NCBI GenBank assembly: GCA_020850535.1
Contig: JADZEM010000010.1
Span: 1-36,119 of the forward strand
Reading direction: 5' to 3'
From: Chloroflexota bacterium
GTDB taxonomy: Bacteria > Chloroflexota > UBA6077 > JACCZL01
Length of the DNA: 36,119 bases
The notes under the pieces were generated by a model that saw nothing but the letters and a program-made list of their open reading frames with translations, was not told the origin of the DNA and searched no databases. A program made the translations under genes and the position numbers. Shown here one piece after another: positions 11,537 through 36,119 of this stretch. Numbering within the stretch: position 1 is the stretch's first letter; the number at the start of each line of letters is the position of its first letter.

Positions 11537-11546
11537 GCGGTCGGGG

Positions 11547-11739
11547 CCATCGCATGTACGCTGGTGCTCCCAAAGCATCACGACACGAGCGGTCGGGGAC
11601 TGAAGTCCCCGCCTACACGCATTCAGTCGCTGCGCGACGGCCGTCGGGAATGGCAGGCACTGGTGCGACTGGAGCGTCGCGCAGCGACTGCAGGATCATA
11701 GGCGGGGCTTTCAAGCCCCGACGCGGCGGCACGACGCAG
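11547..11739 (+). repeat. Structured intergenic repeat, unit 1 of a tandem pair
   Basis: This unit has three parts. First a diverged lead module (GCATGTACGCTGGTGCTCCC and following). Then a GGGGACT/AGTCCCC hairpin (11595-11610). Last a core bounded by the perfect inverted repeat GTCGCTGCGCGAC / GTCGCGCAGCGAC and closed by a GGGGCTT/AAGCCCC hairpin (11704-11719). From the first hairpin through the closing hairpin it is almost identical to unit 2, exactly 195 bp later. It is noncoding by composition, although one frame stays open through both units because 195 is a multiple of three. The gap between 11537 and 12024 contains nothing else but the short promoter region of the next gene. Confidence 0.9.
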
Positions 11740-11918
11740 GGCGATTGCATGTTCATCGGTGTACCCGAAACACCGTCAAATGAGCAGGCGGGGACTTCAG
11801 TCCCCGCCTACACTCATTCAGTCGCTGCGCGACGGCCGTCGGGAACGGCAGGCACTGGTGCGACTGGAGCGTCGCGCAGCGACTGCAGGATGGTAGGCGG
11901 GGCTTTCAAGCCCCGACG
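11740..11918 (+). repeat. Structured intergenic repeat, unit 2
   Basis: This begins with the module GGCGATTGCATGTTCATCGG, seen again at 20858-20966 and at the right window edge. It continues with a GGGGACT/AGTCCCC hairpin (11790-11805), the GTCGCTGCGCGAC core and a GGGGCTT/AAGCCCC hairpin. The terminal inverted module found on the copy at 20858-20966 is absent here, so the right end is truncated about 11918-11925. It lies 107 bp upstream of the D-aminoacylase start. Confidence 0.9.
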
Positions 11919-12024
11919 ACGCTGCGCGACCCGCCCACCGTGGGATTGGCCTGCGGGGAGATCGCTTCGGCACACGCCGGGGTCGCCGGTCGGCTACCAT
12001 CGCGCTCAAAACTCGGAGGGCACG

Positions 12025-18615: not shown

Positions 18616-18969
18616 TGGTGGAGACGGAGGGGAATCGAACCCCTCGTCCAGAGCGACTCAATCCGAGAGTACTACAGGCTTAGTCGAAGCTCTTTCATGT
18701 CGCGCCCAGGACCCCTGTCGACCGGGTTCCAGGGAGCCAGTCCGCTGATCTTAAGCACACCCTAGCAGACGGTCCGATGTGCAGCACTTCGGCTTTGGTG
18801 ACGCCTTTTACCGCCCCACCGAAACGAGGGCGGGAAGACGCTCGCTGGGATTAAGCAGCGAGAGCGTACTGTGGTTCGGCTGTTATGCCGTGCCGATTGA
18901 TTAACGAGGGCACCGGCACCTCGGCCTGCACTCTACGAACCTCCTCCCCTGTCGAAACCTAGCGTCCCC
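18616..18969 (-). ncRNA. ssrA: tmRNA (transfer-messenger RNA)
   Basis: This one-piece tmRNA of ~354 nt rescues stalled ribosomes together with SmpB. The 5' GGGGACG and the 3' CGTCTCC pair as a 7-bp acceptor stem (one G-U) followed by ACCA at 18616. The T-arm GGGGTTCGATTCCCC is intact near the 3' end. The D-like segment shows GGTTTCGACAGGGG, the conserved TTCGAC of tmRNAs. The tag reading frame ends ...YALAA-TAA at 18851. Pseudoknot-like stems follow, for example the GCTTCG/CGAAGC type. The 5' end lies inside the last codons of smpB: the smpB stop TAG occupies tmRNA positions 9-11. Exact 5' end could shift by one G. Confidence 0.95.
18851..18880 (-). other. tmRNA proteolysis-tag reading frame
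   Basis: Read on the minus strand the codons GCC GAA CCA CAG TAC GCT CTC GCT GCT TAA give A-E-P-Q-Y-A-L-A-A-stop. The ALAA ending is the standard ClpXP-type degron. The resume codon is inferred as GCC because Ala is usual at this position. A resume one or more codons earlier would give a longer tag. Confidence 0.75.
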
Positions 18970-20857: not shown

Positions 20858-20966
20858 CAGGGCAATCGCCTGTTGAGCGCGCCGTGCACGGTGGTCGGGG
20901 CTTTCAAGCCCCGACCGCTCGTCTGACGGCGTTTCGGGAACACAGACGAACATGCCATCGCCCTGG
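20858..20966. repeat. MITE-like element with terminal inverted repeats
   Basis: The ends CAGGGCAATCGCCTGTT and AACATGCCATCGCCCTG form imperfect terminal inverted repeats. Inside is a hairpin with GGTCGGGGCTT/AAGCCCCGACC arms around 20893-20916. From the hairpin to the right end the minus strand matches the lead module of the repeat at 11740-11918 (GGCATGTTC, CCCGAAAC, CCGTCA and GAGC blocks in the same order). The long GTCGCTGCGCGAC core is missing, so this looks like a shorter, complete family member. It lies in the 205-bp gap between the Xer recombinase stop and the S41 protease start. Confidence 0.75.
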
Positions 20967-35621: not shown

Positions 35622-35727
35622 GTTCACCCTCCTGGGACTCGGCGCGCGCCACTGCACGCCGAGATAGCACGCCATGTCGTTGGCGTAAGACAACCGGAGC
35701 GGTCCCGCGGACACCTGGTGTCTCGGT

Positions 35728-35816
35728 CACCGCTTCCCTTCGCAGGTCCTAACCTGGTCAGGTTCAAAGGGTCGCCCGCCGTACCGGCGGACTCTCAGCC
35801 CGTGGCTCCCCTAGCA
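35728..35816 (-). promoter_or_regulatory. TPP riboswitch (THI element)
   Basis: On the minus strand the conserved boxes appear in order: TAGGGGAGCC, GGCTGAGAGT, a variable GC hairpin (CCGCCGGTACGGCGG), then CGACCCTTTGAACCTGACC, AGGTTAGGACCTGCGAAGG and GGAAGCGG. These are the helix junctions that bind thiamine diphosphate. It sits 107 bases before the thiG start. The segment between includes a short GACACC/GGTGTC inverted repeat, but the mode of control (termination or masking of the AGGAGG) is not clear. It should lower thiGES expression when TPP is plentiful. Confidence 0.96.
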
Positions 35817-35849
35817 TCGTCGTACCGAGTCTGCGCTCTTCGATTTTCA

Positions 35850-35925: not shown

Positions 35926-36119
35926 CCAGGGCGATTGCATGTTGATGTCGTCGTGCGGCGGCGTCGGGGCTTGAAAGCCCCGCCTACGATCCTGCAGTCG
36001 CTGCGCGACGCTCCAGTCGCACCAGTGCCTGCCGTTCCCGACGGCCGTCGCGCAGCGACGGAATGACTGTAGGCGGGGGTTTCAACCCCCGACCGCCCGT
36101 TCCATGATGCTTCGGGTAC
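35926..36119 (-). repeat. Structured intergenic repeat, inverted third copy, cut by window end
   Basis: This is the reverse complement of the units at 11547-11918. It begins with a terminal module CCAGGGCGATTGCATGTTGA (outer inverted repeat). Next come GGGGCTT/AAGCCCC, the core with GTCGCTGCGCGAC/GTCGCGCAGCGAC (36000 onward), a GGGGGTT/AACCCCC hairpin (~36076-36091) and part of the lead module (GATGCTTCGGGTAC) at the last base. The terminal module on the left shows that a full element has inverted ends. Confidence 0.88.

Follow-up and report, generated by a model that had tools for sequence, protein, structure and literature searches.

The repeats described here are very probably an ISAs1-type MITE whose hairpin variants are haplotypes passed between copies by recombination, and this is the best explanation of the data as a whole. 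The window, i.e. the whole stretch of 36,119 nt that was analysed, is the entire contig C10 of the host genome. The original prediction placed two tandem 195-bp units in it; both are present, but the true units are larger, with borders at about 11541-11736 and 11737-11953 that are set by terminal repeats. The repeat unit is a 217-bp non-coding element bounded by 17-bp terminal repeats, starting with CAGGGCGATTGCATGTT and ending with AACATGCAATCGCCCTG, and the features first described form the interior of this larger unit. Internally, a left hairpin (H1) is followed by a core containing the inverted repeat GTCGCTGCGCGAC/GTCGCGCAGCGAC and by a right hairpin (H2), and the element as a whole approximates a single long imperfect palindrome. 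The perfect core repeat and the hairpin versions GGGGACT/AGTCCCC, GGGGCTT/AAGCCCC and GGGGGTT/AACCCCC were found in the sequence just as predicted. The copies in the window and their parts are listed below; the hairpins and core arms carry no strand and were read from the sequence.

11541 to 11736, + strand: MITE copy A, first half of the dimer, with a decayed left terminal repeat and without the right terminal repeat (last 22 bp); nhmmer match 11544-11736, model positions 3-195, 186 bits
11594 to 11611: hairpin H1 of copy A, CGGGGACTGAAGTCCCCG
11626 to 11638: core arm GTCGCTGCGCGAC of copy A
11676 to 11688: core arm GTCGCGCAGCGAC of copy A
11703 to 11720: hairpin H2 of copy A, CGGGGCTTTCAAGCCCCG
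11737 to 11953, + strand: MITE copy B, full 217 bp, with a perfect left and a decayed right terminal repeat; nhmmer model positions 1-217, 201 bits
11737 to 11753, + strand: CAGGGCGATTGCATGTT, the terminal inverted repeat of copy B, which matches the ISAs1 end on G001:C70 exactly
11789 to 11806: hairpin H1 of copy B, CGGGGACTTCAGTCCCCG, with its loop flipped (TC for GA)
11821 to 11833: core arm GTCGCTGCGCGAC of copy B
11871 to 11883: core arm GTCGCGCAGCGAC of copy B
11898 to 11915: hairpin H2 of copy B, CGGGGCTTTCAAGCCCCG
20858 to 20965, - strand: complete short form of 108 bp that has a single hairpin and both terminal repeats
35927 to 36119, - strand: MITE copy truncated at the end of the contig; nhmmer model positions 25-217, 205 bits

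Copies A and B form a head-to-tail dimer (11541-11953), and its junction, cacgacg joined directly to cagggcg, recurs at other loci. The flipped H1 loop of copy B is a rare form that is present in other copies too. Both predicted relatives exist with adjusted limits: the one placed at 20858-20966 is the complete 108-bp element, and the one placed at 35926-36119 starts one base later and runs off the contig, reading H2-core-H1 on the + strand. Short forms of 107-109 bp numbered eight in the sampled DNA. The window also contains a TPP riboswitch aptamer at 35718-35822 (- strand), with the truncated MITE copy beginning about 105 bp upstream of it, and a tmRNA gene at 18616-18969 (- strand; Rfam RF00023, 167 bits).

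The host genome is a 7.65-Mb draft in 227 contigs, which are broken at repeats; the sample analysed in depth covers 1.28 Mb of it and is targeted, lying mostly around known copies. The search for further copies in the host, proposed at the outset, retrieved 588 terminal-repeat ends genome-wide with at most one mismatch, against none for the reversed pattern, and the MITE copies number roughly 300. Pairs of ends 196-226 bp apart occurred 94 times in the host genome and were absent from 28 genomes of the same class. Within the sample, 101 copies fell in the range 195-225 bp, the length being exactly 217 bp in 73 of these, and all 246 core stem-loops lay within copies. The corresponding search for copies in other genomes came back empty: none was detected by DNA search in 40 relatives, and none was found in the plasmids searched or in viral contigs searched by hairpin pattern.

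Exact 10-bp duplications flanked 26 of the 99 full-length copies, while each other length from 4 to 14 was seen once or not at all. Among solitary full-length copies (n=39), the match extended to at least 8 of the 10 flank bases in 31 and to 9-10 of them in 26. Many copies without a target duplication of their own are members of dimers. Of the dimers joined head to tail through a linker of about 10 bp, 19 in all, nine carried the duplication around the dimer and none carried it around either monomer. The linker GTAGCAGCAT was found at eight loci, and the dimers at L130, L101, L138, L105, L144 and others have a fixed 10-bp linker, either GTAGCAGCAT or GTTCGTGACT; such fixed-linker dimers moved as units of about 444 bp with their own target duplication. 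Duplications around dimers and not monomers, together with the recurrent linker, show that a founder dimer moved as a unit. Short and non-coding, with terminal inverted repeats, a 10-bp target duplication and many dispersed copies, the family has the defining features of a MITE. Two MITE copies at one locus (L098:2034-2484) have a core whose orientation is apparently inverted between the outer arms, and the hairpins where the exchange took place are hybrids, a configuration that recombination between H1 and H2 would give.

Genes were predicted with a home-made caller, whose calls are approximate. On these calls, 13 of 86 insertion points (15%) fell inside predicted genes, compared with 83% of random points. 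The intergenic insertions (14 convergent, 23 divergent and 34 tandem) were distributed close to the share of intergenic bases and, with these approximate calls, showed no preference for convergent gene ends. This pattern fits a mobile element filtered by gene damage, and a terminator role, which was considered from position and rejected, is left unsupported by it.

That the repeats are a transposase-dependent MITE, one of the three possibilities raised initially, is borne out by the ends, the copy number and the 10-bp duplications, and ISAs1 can now be given as the family of the transposase. At one end, the MITE is identical in 17/17 bases to the end CAGGGCGATTGCATGTT of an ISAs1 element with an intact transposase (397 bits) in G001, which belongs to a different genus of the same family; the ends of that element, CAGGGCGATTGCATGTT and CAGGGCGATTGCATGAT, are the sole two such ends in the G001 genome. 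This 17-bp identity with an intact ISAs1 of another genus marks the repeat as an ISAs1-type MITE. Similar ends, CAGGG..CGCA(T), were found in ISAs1 elements on Thiodictyon, Xanthobacter and Acidiphilium plasmids and in G004, and four of the elements examined in this set have 10-bp duplications, the same length as those of the MITE. Five terminal-repeat cores lay outside MITE matches in the 1.28 Mb, and three of these are ISAs1 ends. The likeness to the ISAs1 family (NCBIfam NF033564, Pfam PF13808) is confined to the ends and the duplication; the MITE differs from it in having no transposase gene, in its length (217 bp vs about 1.25 kb for the IS) and in its unrelated interior.

In the host genome, the PF13808 profile detected two ISAs1-family genes, on contigs C136 and C187, both incomplete. 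The C136 gene is interrupted, its parts lying at 27692-26857 and 21340-21230 and the outer ISAs1-type ends at about 21107 and 27870. As a side observation, this element (G000:C136:21107-27870) is interrupted by other DNA of about 5.5 kb, and both of its outer ends are still recognisable. No intact ISAs1 transposase was found in the draft host genome, where all copies found are truncated or interrupted, which leaves a source that is lost, unassembled or outside the genome; it is possible that an intact copy was lost or is unassembled in the draft. An intact autonomous partner in the same genome is usual for a MITE but is not required. Judging from the truncated and interrupted copies, we infer that the ISAs1 source now in the host genome is dead, and the ends and the duplication length indicate that the MITE was probably moved by an ISAs1-family transposase.

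In the mechanism that we propose, an ISAs1-family DDE transposase would act on the 17-bp ends CAGGGCGATTGCATGTT of the non-autonomous MITE and would cut the target with a stagger of 10 bp; both monomers and head-to-tail dimers have moved as units. The internal H1-core-H2 hairpins belong to the element, and the paired changes would correspond to a few hairpin haplotypes spread between copies by recombination or gene conversion. Broken stems would be excluded from the amplifying lineage, either through template-switch repair of the palindrome or through selection for mobility.

The covariation in the hairpins was assessed by linkage, singletons and pair counts. It is genuine but thin, and it does not consist of many independent compensations. 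Across 108 near-complete copies, pairing reaches 98.7% in H1, 99.7% in H2 and 98.5% in the core stem. Two base pairs vary in H1, with the joint states AC/GT in 73 and GT/AC in 29 of the 108 copies and mixed states being rare, and the rare changes in H2 mostly copy the H1 state. As the two H1 pairs do not change separately, the pattern is unlike step-by-step compensation; in place of independent compensatory changes across copies, we found two H1 pairs in two joint states among recombining copies. The signs of recombination are several. Among pairs of sites separated by more than 10 bp, 81-87% have all four gametes; linkage decays with distance, none of 1000 permutations giving a value as low; and r2 between the H1 sites and sites 11-13 bp downstream of the variable part of the hairpin is only 0.002-0.012. 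If the hairpins are left out of the tree, the type of H1 switches about 11 times along it, and only two of these switches are forced by well-supported branches.

Linkage inside H1 is nevertheless far above that of other pairs, with a mean r2 of 0.92 vs 0.19 for other pairs at 4-8 bp (largest 0.84), which argues that broken stems occur less often than would follow from block exchange alone. Given this linkage, some maintenance of the stem in the amplifying lineage is likely, and structural selection during amplification may contribute. The original prediction took the paired changes as evidence of selection on the structure; this goes too far, since the two varying pairs change together between two existing haplotypes, the copies recombine heavily and resident copies mutate as fast in the hairpins as in the spacers, even though pairing is tighter than linkage between neighbours. 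Divergence from the family consensus is 14% in spacers, 4-8% in terminal repeats and about 1% in core stems; that of the hairpins, for which the closest of three haplotypes served as reference, is also about 1%, so that no parts of the family are better conserved than the hairpins and the core stem. Singletons, in contrast, are spread evenly (29 of 6897 cells in stems vs 58 of 12766 in spacers, p=0.82), and they arose mostly after insertion. Conserved stems with evenly spread singletons point to constraint or repair in amplifying copies and to none in resident copies, which are without sign of structural selection.

For the covariation only, and compatibly with a MITE, a possible though somewhat doubtful explanation is that template-switch repair copies one arm of a palindrome onto the other, free of selection. 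Template switching, as described in PMC8794818, can change several bases at once in a compensatory way, and it can form or restore hairpins in the absence of selection. In agreement with it, some copies have a flipped loop (TTCA for TGAA) or a half-converted stem. On its own, however, it leaves unexplained both the conservation of stem sequence and the recurrence of two haplotypes on different backgrounds, the latter being explained by recombination. Selection for mobility would give the same pattern as template-switch repair here.

The high pairing of the stems in the 108 copies, and their low divergence relative to the spacers, could also be expected if the hairpins were selected as RNA or cruciform in every resident copy, as a terminator, mRNA stabiliser or protein-binding site, and the changes were truly compensatory. 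We consider this unlikely, as private mutations are equally frequent in stems and spacers, variation at any frequency is limited to two H1 pairs, which change jointly between two states, the rare H2 changes mostly following H1, and there is no bias of insertions to convergent gene ends. Moreover, no Rfam family matches the repeats at gathering score, the tmRNA and the TPP aptamer elsewhere being the sole matches in the window; below threshold, the repeats gave chance matches. The absence of an Rfam family and of a convergent-end preference likewise tells against the structured RNA suggested initially.

The REP/BIME-type element also suggested, in which H1 and H2 would be GTAG-tagged REPs (described in PMC3733652) moved by a RAYT (Y1) transposase, is highly improbable: H2 reads GTAGGCGGGGCTTTCAAGCCCCGAC, a GTAG adjoining a short palindrome, and the two tagged palindromes face inward as in BIMEs and REPINs, but no Y1 transposase was matched in the host genome by a search that was positive in five control genomes, the mobile units end at CAGGG (DDE-type ends) with 10-bp duplications, and the hairpins are practically never alone (286 inside the MITE, 1 outside), so that the palindromes are not free units. 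A RAYT/REP origin was rejected on the missing RAYT/Y1 gene, and the idea that the hairpins are an independent repeat captured by the MITE was dropped on the same hairpin count.

The ISAs1-type MITE can be compared with the bacterial MITEs Correia/NEMIS, ERIC, Nezha, Chunjie and QMITE (reviewed in PMC10969869), which are likewise short and non-coding, with terminal inverted repeats, a target duplication, a size ladder and up to hundreds of mostly intergenic copies. It differs from them in its ISAs1-type repeats and duplication, its paired internal hairpins and its dimers mobilised as units. In the openly searchable literature, which does not extend to ISfinder or subscription papers, no paper was found on the MITE end sequences in this context or on a link between ISAs1 and MITEs.

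GTDB species genomes were scanned for paired ends at similar spacing, and 57 stretches of 196-225 bp with CAGGGNGATNGCA ends were detected in other genomes of several phyla (L162-L218), including Chloroploca, Bradyrhizobium, Methylobacterium, Planctomycetota, Bradymonadaceae, Oxalobacteraceae and Capsulimonadaceae. The stretches are MITE-like, with CAGGGCGATYGCA ends and often palindromic interiors, although at least L163 and L174, judged by eye, resemble fortuitous matches within coding DNA. They are like the host MITE in their ends and 10-bp duplication, whereas their interiors are, by eye, unrelated to it. Among the 56 with usable flanks, the 10-bp duplication was exact in 20 and within one mismatch in 30, against 0.5 expected after shuffling. 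Seventeen of these genomes contained from 1 to 111 such ends each, with none in the control. A general design with two local hairpins is not claimed for the cross-phylum stretches: a crude test of low sensitivity was positive in 3 of the 57, with the host family's own copies scoring only 6/6. As a conjecture, held with low confidence, we advance that ISAs1-ended MITEs are one cross-phylum class and that in the host family the internal hairpins are required for amplification, so that selection would act on the structure while the lineage transposes and not in resident copies. In amplification, the hairpins could serve, for example, in extrusion that lets the ends of the 217-bp DNA pair, or in shielding from read-through transcription.

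These results illustrate that the signature classically taken to indicate a structured RNA can also arise in a repeat family, when paired and seemingly compensatory changes move as blocks between recombining copies. They also name the likely mobilising family and indicate that MITEs with ISAs1 ends are widespread, occurring in several phyla. With about 300 copies that comprise monomers, dimers and short forms, the family offers good data on whether internal hairpins matter in MITE amplification.
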